A stretch of 64,000 nt of DNA from Streptomyces mangrovisoli. Its GTDB lineage: Bacteria > Actinomycetota > Actinomycetes > Streptomycetales > Streptomycetaceae. The stretch covers positions 124,001 through 188,000 of the forward strand of contig NZ_LAVA02000003.1 of the NCBI RefSeq assembly GCF_000974985.2. Direction: 5' to 3'. The position numbers and the translations under genes were made by a program. This document shows positions 11,982 through 55,500 of the stretch, in pieces (within the stretch, counting starts at the first letter, position 1; the number at the start of each line of letters is the position of its first letter). The notes under the pieces were generated by a model. That model made no database searches and was not told where the DNA came from. It saw only the letters and a program-made list of their open reading frames with translations.

Positions 11982-13466
11982 TCAGTCGGCGAAGACCGAG
12001 CCGTACTGCGGGTAGCCCGCCGTGGACAGGCCGGAGGCGCTCGCGGAGAGGGCGCGGGAGCCGGTCGTGGTGATCTTCGTGCCGCTGGACGGCAGGTAGG
12101 TGACCGCGCCGTTGCCGCTGTTCTCGGTCGAGCCGACGATGAGGTCGGCCTTGCCGTCGCCGTTGACGTCGTCGAGCTTCACGTCGACACCGAACATGTC
12201 GTACTTCTCGTCGCTGCCCGGGACGCCCGCGGTGCTCTGGGCGAAGGACTGGGCGCCGGAGGCGGTGTTCACGCCGGAGGCGGAGCCGTACAGGACGGTG
12301 ACCATGCCGGTGTCGGTCACGCCGCCGATGTCCTCCAGCGGCGTGGAGACGACCAGGTCCTGGTAGCCGTCCCCGTTGATGTCACCGAGGTCGAGGTCCC
12401 AGCCGAAGGCGTCGTCCTTCTCGGACGTGCCGGGGACGCTGCCGGTGTTCTGGTTGATGTAGGTGGTGCCGGCCGGGCCCGAGGCGGAGCCGTAGGTGAT
12501 GTTGGCCCGCCCGCCGTCGGAGGAGTCCGGGATGGCGACGGGGTCGTCCCCGTCGATCGTCCCGTTCCAGTCGGCGCCGGTGACGATGTCGCCGTAGCCG
12601 TCGCCGTTGATGTCGCCGATGCCGGTGACGATGCCGGCCCTGAGCTTGACCGCGGAGGACCCGCTCAGGCCCGTGGAGCTGCCGGGCAGCCAGTAGTTGG
12701 TGTTCCAGCCGGTCCCGGTCTCCGTCTCGTAGCCGTCCACCACGAGGTCGGTCTTCCCGTCGCCGTTCACGTCACCCGCGGTGATGTGCTGCGGGCCGTC
12801 GGAACCGCCGGACATGATCGGCGGCTTGAAGGTCGTACGGCTGCCGTAGGCGCCGGCGGTGGTGAAGCCGCCCTTGTACAGGTACATGGTCGAGGAGGAG
12901 CTGCCGACCGCCAGGTCGGCCTTGCCGTCGCCGTCGAAGTCGCCCGCGGCCAGGGTCCGGCCCCAGTAGTCGTGGGAGGAGGCCGCCGGGTCGGCGACGG
13001 TGAGGCCCTTGCCGGTCAGGCCGCTCTTGGAGCCCCAGAGGATGGCGACCGTGCCGCCGTCGGCGTCGCTGCCGACCTTCTCGTCCGGGGTGCCCACCGC
13101 GAGGTCGTCGTAGCCGTCGCCGTTGAAGTCGGCGTACGCGGTGTCGTAGCCGAACACGTCGCCCGCCTCGGCGGTGCCGGGGACGCCGGAGCTGTTCTGG
13201 CTGAGGGTGGTGCGCTTGGAGGAGCTGATGCCGGTCGACTTGGTGCCGTAGAGCACGACGACCGCGCCCGCGTTGGCGTGGCCGCTGACGGAGGCGTCCG
13301 GGGCCGAGGAGGCGACGTCGCCCACGCCGTCGCCGTTGAAGTCGGCCTGGGCCACGTGGGTGGAGTCCGCCGCGGACGCGGGAAGCGCCGCGAACGTCAG
13401 CAGACCGCCCGTGATGGCGGCGGCCGTGGCCGTCGCGAGGGCGAGTCGCAGGTGCTGCTTGTGCAT
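11982..13466 (-). CDS. Secreted FG-GAP beta-propeller protein, copy 2 of an inverted pair
   Basis: A 494-residue protein; ATG at 13464-13466 with AGGAGA six bases upstream. The signal peptide MHKQHLRLALATATAAAITGG differs from copy 1 by one residue. Seven loops: DFNGDG, DFNGDG, DFDGDG, DVNGDG, DINGDG, DINGDG, DVNGDG. It differs from copy 1 by scattered substitutions and short insertions (for example an extra Gly/Asp segment near residue 325), so the duplication is not recent enough to be perfect. It shares leader, promoter motif and the Phe-Ala-Asp C-terminus. The pair could recombine and flip the tRNA-dcd block. Confidence 0.9.
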   Translation of the reverse strand: MHKQHLRLALATATAAAITGGLLTFAALPASAADSTHVAQADFNGDGVGDVASSAPDASVSGHANAGAVVVLYGTKSTGISSSKRTTLSQNSSGVPGTAEAGDVFGYDTAYADFNGDGYDDLAVGTPDEKVGSDADGGTVAILWGSKSGLTGKGLTVADPAASSHDYWGRTLAAGDFDGDGKADLAVGSSSSTMYLYKGGFTTAGAYGSRTTFKPPIMSGGSDGPQHITAGDVNGDGKTDLVVDGYETETGTGWNTNYWLPGSSTGLSGSSAVKLRAGIVTGIGDINGDGYGDIVTGADWNGTIDGDDPVAIPDSSDGGRANITYGSASGPAGTTYINQNTGSVPGTSEKDDAFGWDLDLGDINGDGYQDLVVSTPLEDIGGVTDTGMVTVLYGSASGVNTASGAQSFAQSTAGVPGSDEKYDMFGVDVKLDDVNGDGKADLIVGSTENSGNGAVTYLPSSGTKITTTGSRALSASASGLSTAGYPQYGSVFAD

Positions 13467-13583
13467 GCGGTTTCTCCTGCTGCATGCGGGATGCCGCGAG
13501 GGCATCCGCAGTCGATGGGGTGCCGTATTGCCCGTGTTCGCCGCGAGTTCGCCTCGGTGTCATGAGCAGGTCGGCAAGAGGGA

Positions 13584-13610
13584 GACCGCCATCGGTGCGA
13601 AATGGTTGTA
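13584..13610 (-). promoter_or_regulatory. ECF-sigma-like promoter of FG-GAP gene 11982-13466
   Basis: Minus strand: TACAACC, 13 bases, GGCGGTC. Fifth member of the shared set; the predicted leader is about 110 bases. Confidence 0.57.
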
Positions 13611-13703
13611 CGTGACACCGGGAAATTTCTGGGACTGGTGTGAACCGGCTCCGGAGAGGCGGGCCGGGCCCCGCGGGGACCCCGCGCGGGGCAGACTGGG
13701 CGC

Positions 13704-14063
13704 ATGAGCGTAGTCAAGATCAACGTACTGACCGTCCCCGCCGAGCAGCGCGAGACGCTGGAGAAGCGGTTCGCCTCGCGGGCCCACGCCGTCGAGAACT
13801 CCGACGGGTTCGAGTGGTTCGAGCTGCTGCGGCCCGTCGAGGGCACCGACACCTACCTCGTGTACACGCGCTGGCGGGACGAGGCGTCCTTCCAGGCGTG
13901 GATGGAGGGGCCGATGAAGGCCGCCCACCAGGGGCAGGGCGCCGGCGGCCAGGGCGGCGGTGCTCAGGGCGGTGGCGAGGGCGGTGAGCGGCCGCGTCCG
14001 GCCGCCTCCGGTTCCACGCTGTGGTCGTTCGAGGTCGTGCAGCAGGCCGGCCCGAAGGAGTAG
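13704..14063 (+). CDS. MhuD/IsdG-type haem-degrading monooxygenase
   Basis: A 119-residue protein of the antibiotic-biosynthesis-monooxygenase fold. It opens MSVVKINVLTVPAEQ and matches mycobacterial MhuD closely. The key residues sit at the same numbers: Asn7, Trp66 and the haem-ligand His75. RAHAVENS and LLRPVEGTDTYLVYTRW are near-identical to MhuD. The family opens haem to release iron using O2 and an electron donor, in the cytoplasm. An insert rich in Gly and Gln (about residues 77-93) replaces a short MhuD loop. It is monocistronic with a 15-bp terminator behind. Family call is firm; the exact product (mycobilin, staphylobilin or biliverdin) is not predictable. Confidence 0.88.
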   Translation: MSVVKINVLTVPAEQRETLEKRFASRAHAVENSDGFEWFELLRPVEGTDTYLVYTRWRDEASFQAWMEGPMKAAHQGQGAGGQGGGAQGGGEGGERPRPAASGSTLWSFEVVQQAGPKE

Positions 14064-14089
14064 CGGCGGGTCCCACGCCCTACGACGAT

Positions 14090-14124
14090 GGCGCCCCCGG
14101 CCTCTCGATGAGGCCGGGGGCGCC
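14090..14124. terminator. Bidirectional terminator between convergent genes
   Basis: A perfect 15-bp stem (ggcgcccccggcctc with gaggccgggggcgcc, five-base loop), extended by complementary TACGAC and GTCGTA flanks. It separates the MhuD-like gene from the convergent Fe-S protein gene. Confidence 0.85.
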
Positions 14125-14143
14125 GTCGTACGCCGAACGGGTG

Positions 14144-16450
14144 TTACTTCGCGGGCTCCGGTTCCGGCGCGTTCTCCGGCTCCGGCTCGCCGGCCGGGTC
14201 GACCGGGGTGCGCACCGAGTCGAGCAGCAGCTGGGCGACGTCGACGACCTGGATCGACTCCTTCACCTTGACGCCCGCGGCGGAGCCGCTTTCAGCCGCA
14301 GCCTTCTTGCCGTTCACGGAGTCCGTGAGCATGACGAGGCAGAACGGGCAGGCCGTGGAGACGATGTCCGGGTTCAGCGAGAGCGCCTCGTCGACGCGCT
14401 CGTTGTTGATGCGCTTGCCGATCCGCTCCTCCATCCACATGCGCGCGCCGCCGGCGCCGCAGCAGAAGCCGCGCTCCTTGTGGCGGTGCATCTCCTCGTT
14501 CCGCAGGCCCGGGACGCTGGCGATGATCTCGCGCGGAGGCGTGTAGATCTTGTTGTGGCGGCCCAGGTAGCAGGGGTCGTGGTAGGTGATGATGCCCTCG
14601 ACCGGGGTGACCGGGACCAGCTTGCCCTCGTCCACCAGGTGCTGGAGCAGCTGGGTGTGGTGGATGACCTCGTAGTCGCCGCCGAGCTGCGGGTACTCGT
14701 TGCCGATGGTGTTGAGGCAGTGCGGGCAGGTCGCGACGATCTTCTTGGCCGACTTCGGCTTGCGCGACTCGTCGGTCACCTTGCCGTCGTCGTCCATCTC
14801 CTCGCCGAACGCCATGTTCAGCGCCATGACGTTCTCCATGCCGAGCTCCTGGAAGAGGGGCTCGTTGCCGAGGCGGCGGGCGGAGTCACCGGTGCACTTC
14901 TCGTCGCCGCCCATGATCGCGAACTTGACGCCCGCGATGTGCAGCAGCTCGGCGAAGGCCTTGGTGGTCTTCTTGGCGCGGTCCTCCAGGGCGCCGGCGC
15001 AGCCGACCCAGTAGAGGTACTCGACCTCGGTGAGGTCCTCGATGTCCTGGCCGACGACCGGGACCTCGAAGTCGACCTCCTTGGTCCACTCCAGGCGCTG
15101 CTTCTTGGCGAGGCCCCAGGGGTTGCCCTTCTTCTCCAGGTTCTTGAGCATCGTGCCCGCCTCGGACGGGAAGGCCGACTCGATCATGACCTGGTAGCGG
15201 CGCATGTCGACGATGTGGTCGACGTGCTCGATGTCCACCGGGCACTGCTCGACGCAGGCGCCGCAGGTGGTGCAGGACCACAGGACGTCGGGGTCGATGA
15301 CGCCGTTCTCCTCGGCGGTGCCGATGAGGGGGCGCTCGGCCTCCGCGAGGGCCGCGGCGGGCACGCCCGCGAGCTGCTCCTCGGACGCCTTCTCCTCGCC
15401 CTCCATGCTCTTGCCGCCGCCGGCGAGCAGGTAGGGCGCCTTGGCGTGCGCGTGGTCGCGCAGCGACATGATCAGCAGCTTCGGGGAGAGCGGCTTGCCG
15501 GTGTTCCAGGCGGGGCACTGCGACTGGCAGCGGCCGCACTCGGTGCACGTGGAGAAGTCGAGCAGGCCCTTCCAGGAGAACTGCTCCACCTGGGAGACGC
15601 CGAAGACGTCGTCGTCACCGGGGTCGGTGAAGTCGATCGGCTTGCCGCCCGAGGTCATCGGCAGCAGGCCGCCGAGGGCGGTCGCGCCCTTGGCGTTGCG
15701 CTTGAACCAGATGTTCGGGAAGGCCAGGAAGCGGTGCCAGGCGACGCCCATGTCCGTCTTGAGCGAGACCGTGATCATCCAGATGAAGGACGTCCCGATC
15801 TTGATCATCGCGGTGAGGTAGATCAGGTTCTGGAGGGTGGCGGTGCCGGTGCCCCGGAAGGCGGCGACCAGGGGGTACGAGGCGAAGTAGGCGGCCTCGT
15901 AGCCGTCCACGTGGGCGAGGGCGCCCTCCAGGCCGCGCAGCGTCATGATGGCGAGGCCGATGATGAGGATGACGGCCTCGACGAAGTACGCCTGGCCGAA
16001 GTTGGAGCCGGCGAAGCGGGACTTGCGTCCGGCCCGGGTCGGCAGCGACAGCTGGCGGATCACGATGAGCGTGAGGATGCCGAGCGTGGTCATCGTGCCG
16101 ATGAACTCGACGAACATCTCGTACGGCAGCCAGTGACCGATGACCGGCAGCGTCCAGTCGGCCTCGAAGAGCTGGCCGAAGGCGTTGATCAGGGTCAGCA
16201 CCAGGGAGAAGAAGCCGACGGCGACGAACCAGTGGGCCACGCCGACGACGCCCCACCGGTTCATCCGGGTGTGGCCGAGGAACTCCCTGATCACCGTGGC
16301 GGTGCGGGCGGTCCAGTCGTCGGTCCGGGTGCCGGCGGGAACGTCCTGGCCGAGCCGTACGAACCGGTAGATCTGCGCGATGGCGCGGGCGAACAGCGCC
16401 ACGCCGACCACGGCGAGAACCAGCGACACGATGATCGCGGCGAGTTGCAT
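14144..16450 (-). CDS. Membrane-anchored Fe-S oxidoreductase (HdrD/GlpC-like with NarI-like domain)
   Basis: A 768-residue fusion. Residues about 1-260 hold several membrane helices resembling nitrate-reductase gamma/HdrE cytochrome subunits. Two 4Fe-4S clusters follow: CTECGRCQSQCP (about 300) and CTTCGACVEQCP (about 392). Then come two cysteine-rich CCG domains, with CPHC (about 572), CCGAGG (about 663) and CPFC (about 700), as in heterodisulfide reductase HdrD and glycerol-3-phosphate dehydrogenase GlpC. It ends in a Pro/Glu tail. Such actinobacterial proteins are thought to pass electrons between the quinone pool and a soluble partner such as an acyl-CoA or thiol system; the partner is not in the window. 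GAGGAG lies upstream of the ATG. Confidence 0.9.
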   Translation of the reverse strand: MQLAAIIVSLVLAVVGVALFARAIAQIYRFVRLGQDVPAGTRTDDWTARTATVIREFLGHTRMNRWGVVGVAHWFVAVGFFSLVLTLINAFGQLFEADWTLPVIGHWLPYEMFVEFIGTMTTLGILTLIVIRQLSLPTRAGRKSRFAGSNFGQAYFVEAVILIIGLAIMTLRGLEGALAHVDGYEAAYFASYPLVAAFRGTGTATLQNLIYLTAMIKIGTSFIWMITVSLKTDMGVAWHRFLAFPNIWFKRNAKGATALGGLLPMTSGGKPIDFTDPGDDDVFGVSQVEQFSWKGLLDFSTCTECGRCQSQCPAWNTGKPLSPKLLIMSLRDHAHAKAPYLLAGGGKSMEGEEKASEEQLAGVPAAALAEAERPLIGTAEENGVIDPDVLWSCTTCGACVEQCPVDIEHVDHIVDMRRYQVMIESAFPSEAGTMLKNLEKKGNPWGLAKKQRLEWTKEVDFEVPVVGQDIEDLTEVEYLYWVGCAGALEDRAKKTTKAFAELLHIAGVKFAIMGGDEKCTGDSARRLGNEPLFQELGMENVMALNMAFGEEMDDDGKVTDESRKPKSAKKIVATCPHCLNTIGNEYPQLGGDYEVIHHTQLLQHLVDEGKLVPVTPVEGIITYHDPCYLGRHNKIYTPPREIIASVPGLRNEEMHRHKERGFCCGAGGARMWMEERIGKRINNERVDEALSLNPDIVSTACPFCLVMLTDSVNGKKAAAESGSAAGVKVKESIQVVDVAQLLLDSVRTPVDPAGEPEPENAPEPEPAK

Positions 16451-16609
16451 TTGGGGGCTCCTCGGGCCTGCGAGGGAGATTACTAAGCGGTAACTTATGC
16501 AGTCCGTCTGAGACTACCCGTATCTTTCCTCGCACTGTAGCCAGGCGTGCGGTGATCTGCGTCGCTGAGGGTGACCTCAACCGCCGTGCCGGCTACCCCC
16601 CGGGTGAGG

Positions 16610-16735
16610 GCGGCATTCCACCGGCCTTCCTCCGGCCTTCCGGCGGTGTTCCACCGGCCTTCCTCCGGCCTCCCACCGGCCTTTCTTCGGCCTCCCGGCG
16701 GTGTTCCACCGGCCTTCCGGCGGCGTTCCGCCGGG
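16610..16735. repeat. Degenerate tandem repeat array between divergent genes
   Basis: Several copies of units built from ggtgttccaccggcc and ttcctccggcc occur in the 393-base gap between the Fe-S gene (start 16450) and the gene at 16844. The block ggcggtgttccaccggcct occurs twice (about 16642 and 16698) and nearly so a third time near 16611. The rest of the gap is an AT-rich stretch (about 16795-16838) that probably holds the promoter of the downstream gene. A minus-strand open frame across the array looks spurious. Confidence 0.7.
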
Positions 16736-16843
16736 GTCGCCGGGTGGCCGGAGCGGCGGTCGAGCTCCCTCAGGCGGAGCATTCCGGACAATCCGATCGT
16801 GTTATTCATCAATAATTGCTGCATTCGCGCCTAATTTGGACCC

Positions 16844-18184
16844 GTGCTCTCTGGGATCGCCGCCGCCATCGCCGCCCTGCTGCTCGCCGCCCTGCTCGCG
16901 GCGCTGCTGCGGGTGCCCGTCCTGCGGGCCGGGCTCGCCGACCGGCGGCGGGCGCGCCCGGTGCCGCTGCTCGGCGGCGCCGCCGTGGTGGCCGCCACCT
17001 GCTCGGTGGTCGCCGTGGGGGACGGGTGCGGGCTGCTGCCGGACGGCGCCGGGGCGGGCCGTCTCGCCGGGGCGGCGGCGGTGCTGGCGCTGCTCGGCGG
17101 CGCCGCCGACGTGTGGCGGCTCAGGACCCGGTTCCTCGCCCTGGGCACGGCCGTCGCGGCCGCCTGGGTGGTGCCCTACGACGAGACGGGGGTGCCCGCC
17201 GGACTGCTGGCCGTCGTCTGGATCGTCGCCGTCACGCTCGCCTTCAAGGGCCTCGACCACGCCGACGGGCTGGCCGGGACCGTGGGCGTGGTCACCGCCT
17301 TCGGGGTCGGCGCGTGCGCGGCGGCCGAGGTCCTGGACGGGGTCGCGGTGCTGCTCAGCGTGCTGGCCGCGGCGCTCACCGGGTTCCTGATGCACAACTG
17401 GCATCCGGCGCGGATCGCCCTGGGCGCCTGCGGGTCCCTGTTCACCGGGTTCCTGCTGGCCTCCGCGGCCGTGCTCGCCCGCAGCGGGTACGGGCTCGCG
17501 CCCAGCGCGGGCGTTCTGTTCGCGCTCACCGCCGTGGCGGGCGCCGACGCGCTGCTCGTCGTGGCGGCCCGACGGCTCGGGCGGCGGCCGCTGCGGCGCC
17601 GGGCGCCCGACCATCTCGCGCACCGGCTGCGCCGGCTCGGCCTCACCGAGCCGGGCGCGAGCGTGCTGCTCGGCACGGTCTCCGCCGCCGGGGTGGTCGT
17701 CGGGGTGCTCGCCCACGGCGGATGGATCGGCGAGGGGGCGCTGTGGTGGGTGGCGGGCGGCGCGCTCGCGCTGGTGCTGGCCCTGGTGCGGGTGCCGGTC
17801 CCCGCCCGGCGGGGCGAGACGGCGCTACGGCTGCCGGGCGGGCCTCGGCGGGAGGCGGTCGTACGGCCCGCTGGCGGATGCGGGCGGGAGACGGGCGCGC
17901 GGCTCGCCCGTGGACCCGGACGGGAGACGGGCGCAAGGCCCTCCCGTGGACCCGGACGGGAGACGGCCGTACGGCTCGTGGTGGGGCGGGAGTGCGCCGT
18001 GCGGCTCGGGGAACGTCATGACGCGGTCGTACGGCTGCCGGGCGGACGCGGTACCGATGTGCGGCTGCCGCGCGGACGCGACTCCGCCGTACGCCCTCCG
18101 GGGGACCCCGTTTCCGGGGTGCGCGGCCTCCGGTCGCTGATGTCGTCGCAGGTCGGAGAGGTGTTGCGTGTAAGGAACGGATAA
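16844..18184 (+). CDS. MraY/WecA-like membrane glycosyltransferase homologue, probably inactive, with a repeat tail
   Basis: A 446-residue protein beginning at GTG 16844. The first 320 residues form about nine to ten membrane helices in the layout of undecaprenyl-phosphate sugar-1-phosphate transferases: PLLGGAAV near 41-48, FKGLDHADGLAG near 133-145 in place of the D-x-x-D-G-L motif, and NWHPARIALGACGSLFTG near 185-202. In active enzymes the last block reads GDxGS; here the metal-binding Asp is Cys (GACGS), so catalysis is doubtful. Residues about 325-440 are a charged tail of repeated GPGRETGARL/RGPG-type units ending QVGEVLRVRNG. The promoter region is AT-rich. Lipid-carrier binding without catalysis is one possibility. 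Confidence 0.72.
   Translation: MLSGIAAAIAALLLAALLAALLRVPVLRAGLADRRRARPVPLLGGAAVVAATCSVVAVGDGCGLLPDGAGAGRLAGAAAVLALLGGAADVWRLRTRFLALGTAVAAAWVVPYDETGVPAGLLAVVWIVAVTLAFKGLDHADGLAGTVGVVTAFGVGACAAAEVLDGVAVLLSVLAAALTGFLMHNWHPARIALGACGSLFTGFLLASAAVLARSGYGLAPSAGVLFALTAVAGADALLVVAARRLGRRPLRRRAPDHLAHRLRRLGLTEPGASVLLGTVSAAGVVVGVLAHGGWIGEGALWWVAGGALALVLALVRVPVPARRGETALRLPGGPRREAVVRPAGGCGRETGARLARGPGRETGARPSRGPGRETAVRLVVGRECAVRLGERHDAVVRLPGGRGTDVRLPRGRDSAVRPPGDPVSGVRGLRSLMSSQVGEVLRVRNG
17880..17966 (+). repeat. 36-bp direct repeat in the C-terminal tail of the MraY-like gene
   Basis: A 24-base block starting cccgtggacccggac is perfectly repeated at 17907-17930 and 17943-17966, period 36 bases (12 codons), with a partial copy just upstream. 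The period is in frame, so copy-number change would lengthen the protein tail without a frameshift. Confidence 0.8.
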
Positions 18185-18186
18185 GA

Positions 18187-18207
18187 GTTGAGCCTCACAG
18201 ACTCATG
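18187..18207. promoter_or_regulatory. Second, degenerate HspR operator (HAIR) upstream of dnaK
   Basis: GTTGAGC-N7-ACTCATG, matching the CTTGAGT-N7-ACTCAAG HAIR consensus at 11 of 14 positions with the exact N7 spacing. It lies 31 bases upstream of the perfect site, about three helical turns, as expected for cooperative HspR binding. Confidence 0.55.
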
Positions 18208-18215
18208 TCTGTTGA

Positions 18216-20767
<2,552 letters not shown>

Positions 20768-20800
20768 GCGTGAACCGATGAGGAAGGAGGGACGTCGGGG

Positions 20801-21991
20801 ATGAGCACCAAGGACTTCATCGAGAAGGACTACTACAAGGTCCTCGGCGTCCCCAAGGACGCCACCGAGGCCGAGATCAAGAAGGCGTACCGGAAGCTCG
20901 CCCGCGAGTTCCACCCGGACGCCAACAAGGGCAACGCCAAGGCGGAGGAGCGGTTCAAGGAGATCTCCGAGGCGAACGACGTCCTCGGTGACCCCAAGAA
21001 GCGCAAGGAGTACGACGAGGCGCGTGCTCTCTTCGGCGGCGGCGGGTTCCGGCCGGGACCCGGCGCCGGCGGCGGCTCCTTCAACTTCGACCTGGGCGAC
21101 CTCTTCGGAGGCGGCGCCCAGGGTCAGGGTCAGGGCGGCGGCTTCGGCGGCGGCGGTGGTGGCCTCGGCGACGTCTTCGGGGGCCTGTTCAACCGCGGCG
21201 GCGCGGGTACCGGCACCCGGACCCAGCCGCGGCGCGGCCAGGACATCGAGTCCGAGGTCACCCTCAGCTTCACCGAGGCGATCGAGGGCGCGACGGTCCC
21301 GTTGCGCATGTCCTCGCAGGCCCCCTGCAAGGCGTGCTCCGGCACCGGCGACAAGAACGGCACACCGCGCGTGTGCCCGACCTGCGTCGGCACCGGGCAG
21401 GTCGCCCGGGGCTCGGGCGGCGGGTTCTCGCTGACCGACCCCTGCCCCGACTGCAAGGGCCGCGGCCTGATCGCGGAGCACCCCTGCATGGAGTGCAAGG
21501 GCAGCGGACGGGCCAAGTCCTCCCGGACGATGCAGGTCCGCATCCCGGCCGGCGTCACCGACGGGCAGCGCATACGGCTGCGCGGCAAGGGAGCTCCGGG
21601 CGAGCGCGGCGGCCCCGCGGGCGATCTCTACGTGATGGTCCATGTCAACGGTCACCCGGTGTTCGGCCGCAAGGACGACAACCTGACCGTGACCGTGCCC
21701 GTCACCTTCACGGAGGCGGCGCTCGGCGGCGAGGTCAGGGTGCCCACCCTGGGCGGGCCGCCGGTCACCCTGAAGCTGCCGCCGGGCACCCCCAACGGCC
21801 GCACGATGCGGGCCCGCGGCAAGGGCGCGGTCCGCAAGGACGGCACCCGCGGGGACCTTCTGGTCACCGTCGAGGTGAGTGTTCCGCAGGACTTGTCGGG
21901 GAAGGCTCGTGACGCGCTCGAGGCGTATCGCGAGGCGACCGTGGGCGAGGACCCGCGGGCCGAGCTGTTCGAGGCCGCGAAGGGAGCATGA
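20801..21991 (+). CDS. dnaJ: Co-chaperone DnaJ (Hsp40)
   Basis: A 396-residue type I DnaJ. GGAGGA-like AAGGAGG lies ten bases before ATG 20801. The J domain (about 1-75) has the HPD that stimulates the DnaK ATPase (in REFHPDANKG). A Gly/Phe-rich linker (about 78-145) follows, then four CxxCxGxG zinc motifs (CKACSGTG, CPTCVGTG, CPDCKGRG, CMECKGSG, about 176-240) and the two beta-barrel substrate-binding domains. Its stop overlaps the hspR start (ATGA). Heat-regulated through the upstream HAIR. Confidence 0.98.
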   Translation: MSTKDFIEKDYYKVLGVPKDATEAEIKKAYRKLAREFHPDANKGNAKAEERFKEISEANDVLGDPKKRKEYDEARALFGGGGFRPGPGAGGGSFNFDLGDLFGGGAQGQGQGGGFGGGGGGLGDVFGGLFNRGGAGTGTRTQPRRGQDIESEVTLSFTEAIEGATVPLRMSSQAPCKACSGTGDKNGTPRVCPTCVGTGQVARGSGGGFSLTDPCPDCKGRGLIAEHPCMECKGSGRAKSSRTMQVRIPAGVTDGQRIRLRGKGAPGERGGPAGDLYVMVHVNGHPVFGRKDDNLTVTVPVTFTEAALGGEVRVPTLGGPPVTLKLPPGTPNGRTMRARGKGAVRKDGTRGDLLVTVEVSVPQDLSGKARDALEAYREATVGEDPRAELFEAAKGA

Positions 21992-46643: not shown

Positions 46644-46691
46644 GGGCTCGGTCGGGGCTGCGTTTCCGGGTGCGGCCCGGCGGCGGGTCAT

Positions 46692-46810
46692 TCGCGCAGT
46701 TCCCCGCGCCCCTTACGGGTGCGGCCCGGCGGTGGGTTGCTCGCGCAGTTCCCCGCGCCCCTAAGACCGGGCCGCCGAGGGCGCCCCTTCAGGGGCGCGG
46801 GGAACTGCGC
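46692..46810. repeat. Streptomyces-type extragenic repeat, two direct and one inverted copy
   Basis: gcgcagttccccgcgcccct occurs at 46694-46713 and 46743-46762 and as its exact reverse complement at 46791-46810. The inverted pair can form a 20-bp stem and the third copy contains its own small hairpin (gcgcccc/ggggcgc). The element occupies the 311-base gap between the MFS and DUF3151 genes; no gene is seen there. It may act as terminator and as a mobile extragenic palindrome. Confidence 0.9.
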
Positions 46811-55274: not shown

Positions 55275-55395
55275 GCGCCCGAAAGTACGCTCCCGCGCCC
55301 CCGGTGAGCAGCCCTTTCGCCGGTGCGGACGAAAGAAGGCCGAGCCGGTCACCGACCGCGGGCCGACCGCCTGCGGTGAGTGGCCCCGACGCCCC

Positions 55396-55500
55396 CTTGC
55401 CGACCGCCTGCTCCGGGTGGCATGGCGACCTCTTGCCGACGGCCTGCTTCGGGTGGCACGGGCGACCGGTGGCCGACCGCCCGCTTCGGGTGGCGTCGGT
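55396..55500. repeat. Degenerate 36-38 bp tandem repeat
   Basis: Three copies of a unit close to gccgaccgcctgctt-cgggtggca start near 55399, 55435 and 55471, between the ABC ATPase gene and the lipid-kinase-like gene. No gene is supported in the 228-base gap. Confidence 0.65.

Follow-up and report, generated by a model that had tools for sequence, protein, structure and literature searches.

A dnaK-linked protein of the PNPT superfamily in Streptomyces, read as a conserved pseudoenzyme

Does a protein that resembles the carrier-loading transferases MraY and WecA still transfer sugar phosphates when several of their active-site residues have been replaced, and, if it does not, what could keep its gene in place beside dnaK? 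Streptomyces antibiotics include MraY inhibitors. Assembly of peptidoglycan, and of most surface glycopolymers, depends on a single lipid carrier that is scarce (PMC11081497). If the carrier-loading enzymes had a relative that was dead yet conserved, it would be a candidate for sensing or regulation, and for such a protein the plain name "glycosyltransferase" would mislead. Among the matches listed from the open-access PMC literature, no paper dealt with this gene or with any pseudoenzyme of the polyprenyl-phosphate N-acetylhexosamine-1-phosphate transferase superfamily (PNPT: MraY/WecA/DPAGT1). The window analyzed here is the whole stretch of 64,000 nucleotides taken from Streptomyces mangrovisoli, and positions refer to it.

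The locus and the family of its protein

The PNPT-like reading frame is a genuine gene, set between a divergently oriented Fe-S reductase gene and dnaK (Table 1). Its start is shared by orthologues, which in the upstream comparison mostly have GTGCTCTACGGGATC there against GTGCTCTCTGGGATC in the window, and looks leaderless, with no evident ribosome site. In 101 of 105 readable loci the element GTGTTATTC lies 45-46 bp ahead of the start codon; it was absent within 1.5 kb of dnaK from 21 stretches, including those of 16 genomes without the PNPT-like gene. No regulon was seen for this element: its longer form, the 11-mer TCGTGTTATTC, occurred exactly once in the genome sequence in an exact search that allowed no mismatches. 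An Rfam search of positions 13000-21000 for structured RNA gave no match at the gathering threshold. The space between the Fe-S gene and the PNPT-like gene holds an 11/33-bp GC-rich tandem repeat of the CGGCCTTCCAC type (16611-16734), and repeats thus stand at both ends of the gene, the repeat tail being at the other. Elsewhere in the window are a 49-bp unit in two copies with 91% matches (46667-46762), which contains CGCGCAGTTCCCCGCGCCCC, and a 37-bp tandem repeat of 3.9 copies with 78% matches (55353-55494).

Table 1. Features of the PNPT-like gene and its surroundings in the window.
Feature	Position	Strand	Basis or detail
Divergent neighbour, Fe-S cluster and CCG cysteine-rich domains	14144..16450	-	domain match and synteny
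GTGTTATTC element	16799..16807	+	45 bp before start codon
PNPT-like protein ORF	16844..18184	+	446 aa, GTG start, stop 18182-18184
Membrane body, residues 1-319	16844..17800	+	11 predicted long helices, PNPT fold
Ala88-Asp89 at the Asp-Asp pair (MraY D117-D118)	17105..17110	+	alignments, site counts
Lys135 (MraY N190 site); Asp138 and Asp141 (D193, D196 sites) kept	17246..17266	+	alignments, site counts
GACGS block with Ala195 (Mg2+ Asp site, MraY D265) and Cys196 (variable x site)	17423..17437	+	alignments, site counts
His257-Leu-Ala-His260 block (HxxH), kept	17612..17623	+	alignments, site counts
36-bp tandem array in the tail	17849..17975	+	3.5 copies, 80% matches, score 149
Conserved DNA CGCAGGTC...TTGCGTGTAAGGAACGGATAAGAGTTGAG (also CGCAGGTC...TTGCGTGTAAGG..GGATAAGAGTTGAG)	18147..18192	+	codes last residues, extends past stop
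CTTGAGT-N7-ACTCAAG (HAIR, HspR site) upstream of dnaK	18239..18259	.	sequence match to consensus
Downstream neighbour dnaK (HSP70)	18279..20117	+	PF00012, E 2.9e-252, and synteny

By fold and by sequence the protein is a PNPT, a member of the superfamily by descent. PF00953 (Glycos_transf_4) matched the reading frame with 53.6 bits against a cut-off of 27 (E 3.4e-14), and named relatives reach ~73% identity among the matches listed. None of the NCBIfam families reached its own cut-off with this protein, the MraY equivalog (TIGR00445) scoring 31.1 bits against 192.05 and ECA WecA (TIGR02380) 27.8 bits against 326.05. An AlphaFold2 model built from 32 rows (mean pLDDT 67.4, pTM 0.64) has 11 long helices, with pLDDT below 50 at residues 343-417 and 419-430 and low confidence also at residues 185-191, which adjoin the GACGS block. 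When the model was compared with known structures by VIA-align, DPAGT1 6bw6 (Z 15.8, rmsd 4.5, 279 aligned) and MraY 6oyh (Z 15.2, rmsd 4.0, 243 aligned) were among the top 18 rows, all of them MraY or DPAGT1 with Z of 13.2 to 15.8; the next row, an unrelated protein, had Z 6.8. Foldseek likewise gave 6oyh as its best match (E 3.5e-5), and its top 13 rows were MraY or DPAGT1.

Active-site residues, constraint and descent

Catalytic sites were mapped with a family profile aligned to solved MraY structures together with the orthologue alignments. On this mapping, MraY D117-D118 corresponds to A88-D89, N190 to K135, D193 to D138, D196 to D141 and D265 to A195, and the His block to H257...H260. 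PMC5039524 and PMC4790310 describe D98, D99, K116, N171, D174, D231, H289 and H290 of B. subtilis MraY as catalytically important, D265 of A. aeolicus MraY as the Mg2+ holder, and the D117 site as a proposed handler of the lipid phosphate; they also describe MraY mutants without activity that still bound the nucleotide substrate. Three hallmarks of active transferases are missing from the window protein, namely the Mg2+ Asp of GDxGS (Ala195), the Asp-Asp pair (Ala88-Asp89) and the Asn of NxxDxxD (Lys135). The loss at the D117 site, seen in most loci, argues against ordinary lipid-phosphate binding.

An earlier note on this DNA had described an MraY/WecA-like protein without the GDxGS Asp and had pointed to GACGS in its place. 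The string is present in the translation, and the PF00953 match, the fold and the missing Asp agree with that description, but the residue at the Asp site is Ala195; a Cys substituting for the lost Asp was rejected because Cys196 occupies the x position in the alignments. The note had also taken HADGLAG for an altered first Asp motif. This string, too, is present but belongs to the NxxDxxD block, in which both Asp (D138, D141) are retained and Asn has become K135; the first Asp motif is A88-D89. The HLAH block looks decayed when set against HHH of MraY and HLHH of WecA, but in the closest relatives that bear the Asp this block reads HxSH or HxAH, so that Ala259 is not a loss in this PNPT subfamily, and a lost His was rejected on that comparison.

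Homologues were collected by a scan with six peptide patterns taken from the window protein (among the matches listed) and by whole-protein or profile matches; one of the patterns spans the Ala88 site and none spans the Ala195 site. Left out before alignment were L002, L004 and L005, plus L090, L091, L100, L115, L116, L117 and L119 (genomes already present). The aligned homologues were filtered only by the presence of both neighbours, the Fe-S gene and dnaK, on the stretch, giving 107 loci among the matches listed, which include the fragments L162 and L165 and the frame-shifted L065; 105 of the 107 body rows are distinct, and some species possibly occur in both collections.

Asp was found at the Mg2+ site in none of the 107 syntenic loci (among the matches listed), where site 195 is Ala in 89, Ser in 8, Thr in 4, Arg in 3 and Asn in 3. 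The loss is therefore no local mutation, and a sequencing error was rejected on the same count. The earlier note had named orthologues that keep the Asp as the sign of a local mutation; seven deeper relatives (L019, L020, L023, L151, L154, L163 and L164) do keep it, whereas the syntenic ones do not. The note had also asked whether Cys is conserved; Cys196 is common (Cys 93, Ser 7, Gly 3, Thr 3, Ala 1) at what is the variable x position and not the Asp site. Across the same 107 loci, among the matches listed, the Asn site 135 carries Lys or Arg in 105 (Arg 54, Lys 51, Trp 1, Asp 1) and the first Asp site 88 is Ala in 99 (Asp 3, Gly 3, Ser 1, gap 1). The remaining polar sites hardly vary in this set of matches: Asp at site 89 in 106 with one gap, Asp at site 138 in 106 with one Ala, Asp at site 141 in 107, and His at sites 257 and 260 in 105 and 104. 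Among 104 rows chosen as Asp-less, with Asp at site 89 and Arg or Lys at site 92, 38 of 305 columns are invariant, N185, W186, P188, H257 and R261 are present in every row read, and the Mg2+ Asp site ranks 168 of 305 in conservation, in a set preselected for lacking that Asp.

Canonical enzymes of the same hosts served as controls. WecA and MraY were also present in 28 of 28 carrier genomes sampled, with DD, NFVDGLDG, GDSGS and HLHHRL in all 28 aligned WecA and DD, NLTDGLDG, GDTGS and QHHFE in all 28 aligned MraY. In the window genome itself, a search at E 1e-60 gave a single canonical MraY and a single WecA-like enzyme, with motifs intact in both.

Purifying selection acts on the body, with omega of 0.13-0.21. 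For 30 clade members omega was 0.211 (MG) and 0.138 (GY), and fixing omega at 1 cost 767 log-likelihood units under MG, the only clean test of the two, since under GY the null model held both kappa and omega fixed. On 20 rows the PNPT-like gene gave 0.194/0.127 (MG/GY), compared with 0.146/0.078 for the N-part of the Fe-S gene (19 rows), 0.050/0.022 for its C-part (17 rows), 0.037/0.020 for dnaK (20 rows), 0.046/0.032 for WecA and 0.069/0.044 for MraY (28 rows each). Constraint is looser than for WecA and MraY because omega is ~3 to 4.6 times theirs, in sets drawn from partly different genomes (28 genomes for WecA and MraY, 30 or 20 loci for the PNPT-like gene); omega exceeds that of the neighbouring genes too.

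Many genomes of the genus lack the gene, which is therefore dispensable: at E 1e-30, 67 of 150 gave a match, a count that includes deeper relatives, one two-piece copy, one partial copy and another lying where a contig ends. Of 21 stretches of 1.5 kb ahead of dnaK, 16 from genomes that gave no match and 5 from others, 9 had only weak hits (best E 0.008) and 12 had none, so that no convincing gene remnant was found there; 18 of the 21 had the Fe-S gene within reach. Broken copies are L162 (genome G160), split in two frames, L065 of another Streptomyces, which is frame-shifted, and a partial copy in G142.

On a tree of 107 rows, made by a quick method with motif columns blanked and thinned at 88% identity without L064, L065, L162 and L165, the Streptomyces family forms a single clade of 81 rows (SH-aLRT 99); next to it stand actinobacterial PNPTs that bear the Asp and have DNMDG and DHxSHRL motifs. 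The main clade of the thinned tree, 63 rows, is entirely without the Asp, and the seven Asp keepers named above fall within the Streptomyces clade. This tree needs at least 3 changes at the Mg2+ Asp site, 2 at the Asn site and 5 at the first position of the Asp pair. The Asp state would thus have changed at least three times, a minimum only, because the tree is a quick one with some deep forks open and long outgroup branches. Co-loss of the Asn with the Asp, assessed by independent pairs, gave too few pairs for significance.

Around the earliest-branching Asp bearers, L023, L163 and L164, are genes for UDP-glucose/GDP-mannose dehydrogenases, epimerases and glycosyltransferases of group 1; L163 also has a Polysacc_synt protein beside it, and L164 a DUF4012 protein. 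Judged by these predicted neighbours, the three are in polysaccharide-type clusters. No glycosyltransferase was found among the scanned neighbours of L021 and L022 (three and one proteins), which are Asp-less and away from dnaK, nor in three scanned proteins near the actinobacterial L122, two of which are ABC-transporter parts. At L019 and L020 the Fe-S gene adjoins and dnaK is ~4 kb further on; at L019 an FkbM-type methyltransferase stands between the PNPT-like gene and dnaK.

The C-terminal tail and the DNA shared with dnaK

Since PNPT topology has 11 helices with the active-site loops in the cytosol, the tail that follows helix 11 should be cytosolic. Residues 321-446 contain 27 Arg, 23 Gly, 8 Glu and 4 Asp of 126, with a net charge of +15. 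The earlier note had reported a perfect 24-base unit with a 36-bp period. The unit is indeed exact, with just two copies (17907 and 17943) spaced by 36 bp inside a degenerate array, but the tail as a whole is only partly periodic: the 36-bp spacing is followed by one of ~30 bp, and the last residues are non-repeat. That the tail is expandable, as the note had also proposed, was supported between species, where its length varies widely around the short tail of most syntenic orthologues.

Long tails, with at least 120 aa after the HRL motif, were found at 17 loci, 13 of which run in frame to the common stop and 4 of which stop early. By eye, the window repeats are not shared by the long-tailed L001, L015, L025, L038, L045, L047, L080 and L085. 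The long tails of L025, L038, L045, L047, L080 and L085 occupy the equivalent position but differ in their low-complexity sequence, and L107 and L149 are further cases by length. This difference between lineages suggests that the tail expanded on more than one occasion. We read the tail as a lineage-specific, predicted disordered and mostly in-frame expansion that would not be part of the core function.

The end of the gene is shared more widely than the tail. The common stop is in frame at 97 of 107 loci (8 are not, and 2 fragments are unreadable), and in 75 of the 97 the shared end ...LRVRNG* places the stop 94 bp before dnaK. In L018, L050 and L065 the DNA of this end (18147-18192) is conserved although it lies outside the reading frame, and it is partly recognizable upstream of dnaK in the gene-less L167, L171, L172 and L185. 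For this reason a conserved C-terminal peptide was dropped as a functional motif, and the shared end was read as DNA with a role for dnaK, perhaps a further dnaK regulatory site overlapping the 3' end of the gene. Between it and dnaK, CTTGAGT-N7-ACTCAAG matches the HspR consensus published in PMC6102357, which reports three such copies for the dnaK operon of S. coelicolor. The case is a warning that what looks like a conserved C-terminus can be regulatory DNA of the gene that follows.

It is quite possible, though rather less likely than not, that the tail is no protein feature but a GC-rich DNA repeat that happens to lie in an open frame, its end fixed by the DNA upstream of dnaK; this concerns the tail only and is compatible with any reading of the body. 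GC3 is 0.78 in the tail against 0.975 in the body, and the tail is without a normal codon pattern, which fits such an origin, as do the end preserved outside the frame and, in part, outside the gene and the four long-tailed loci with early stops. Against this, 13 of the 17 long tails stay in frame to the common stop, although related loci are non-independent and a 36-bp period is divisible by 3.

Function of the membrane body and comparison with known systems

We read the dnaK-linked protein as a conserved pseudoenzyme of the PNPT superfamily, because the Mg2+ Asp, the Asn and, usually, the first Asp of the pair are replaced while the other polar active-site residues are near-invariant and the body is constrained. 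Catalytic residues have been lost across orthologues that remain under purifying selection, as judged beside WecA, MraY and the neighbouring genes. The protein is very probably catalytically dead, with no sugar-1-phosphate transfer, and from the constraint we infer a retained non-catalytic function. Our tentative choice for that function, which we put at slightly under an even chance, is ligand binding without turnover. The emptied cytosolic cleft would still bind an anionic ligand, either polyprenyl phosphate or a nucleotide-sugar, and the Lys/Arg that is almost fixed where the Asn was would supply positive charge in place of Mg2+. Binding without turnover could then serve in sensing or holding the carrier, or in modulating how envelope glycans are assembled; the tail, rich in Arg and predicted to be disordered, would be a lineage-specific addition outside this core function.

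Retention of the gene after the Asp-state changes (at least three on the tree) and the three Asp-bearing relatives within the genus in polysaccharide-type clusters were counted for the pseudoenzyme. Looser constraint, absence of the gene from many genomes, broken copies, and low model confidence at residues 185-191 and in the tail were counted against one that binds a ligand. The earlier note had supposed a PNPT homologue turned lipid-carrier binder or regulator; a non-catalytic PNPT fits the syntenic loci, of which 0 of 107 keep the Asp (among the matches listed), and it may bind the carrier or act as a regulator.

Instead of binding a ligand, a dead PNPT might act by protein contact, pairing with and tuning WecA, MraY or an exopolysaccharide PNPT. 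Both WecA and MraY are at hand in all 28 sampled carriers. We consider this somewhat unlikely: the cytosolic active-site blocks are invariant, with D141 in 107 of 107 loci (among the matches listed) and N185, W186, P188, H257 and R261 in every row read of the 104, and a purely surface role is disfavoured because it would not need invariant active-site residues.

That the protein is still an enzyme, carrying out the same or a related transfer through a different metal site or without metal, appears very unlikely. The retained D118, D193 and D196 sites, both His and the nearly fixed Lys/Arg could form a re-tooled active site, but the Mg2+ Asp site is Ala, Ser, Thr, Arg or Asn, with no fixed chemistry, it ranks 168 of 305 in the set chosen as Asp-less, and the Asp state has apparently changed at least three times on the tree. 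A relic drifting away, to which patchy presence (67 of 150 genomes), broken copies and an omega above the canonical enzymes would point, is most improbable and already disfavoured by an omega far below 1, the 38 of 305 columns invariant in the 104 rows chosen as Asp-less with Asp at 89 and Arg/Lys at 92, the upstream element conserved in 101 of 105 and the frame to the same stop at 97 of 107 loci.

Returning to the conserved pseudoenzyme, a bolder version of it would have Streptomyces make an exopolysaccharide-type PNPT non-catalytic repeatedly (at least three changes on the tree). In the dnaK-linked form, a nearly fixed Lys/Arg in place of the Mg2+ site would yield a metal-free polyprenyl-phosphate or nucleotide-sugar receptor that monitors carrier-lipid or envelope-precursor supply, with its own upstream element, next to the heat-shock operon. 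Taken as a whole, this scenario is unlikely. As a single genus holds a series from Asp-bearing to Asp-less proteins, the change lends itself to testing one residue at a time.

The nearest known system is that of the WecA-like PNPTs, in particular the actinobacterial group with DNMDG and DHxSHRL motifs (L122, L125, L129). PF00953 is found in both, and the 11 long helices predicted here compare with the 11 transmembrane domains given for WecA of M. tuberculosis in PMC12784632; those proteins, however, have DD, N and GDxGS where the protein here has AD, K/R and GAxGS. MraY shares the fold (Z 15.2 to 6oyh), and its D118, D193 and D196 sites are retained here, whereas its D117, N190 and D265 sites are replaced, the score lies far below the NCBIfam mraY cut-off, the HxxH block is of the WecA-like kind and the neighbourhood is that of dnaK. 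Among membrane pseudoenzymes, the iRhom pseudoproteases (PMC3149277) likewise retain a polytopic fold with the catalytic residues gone; they belong to an unrelated family, and their function has been shown by experiment, whereas the one given here is a proposal.
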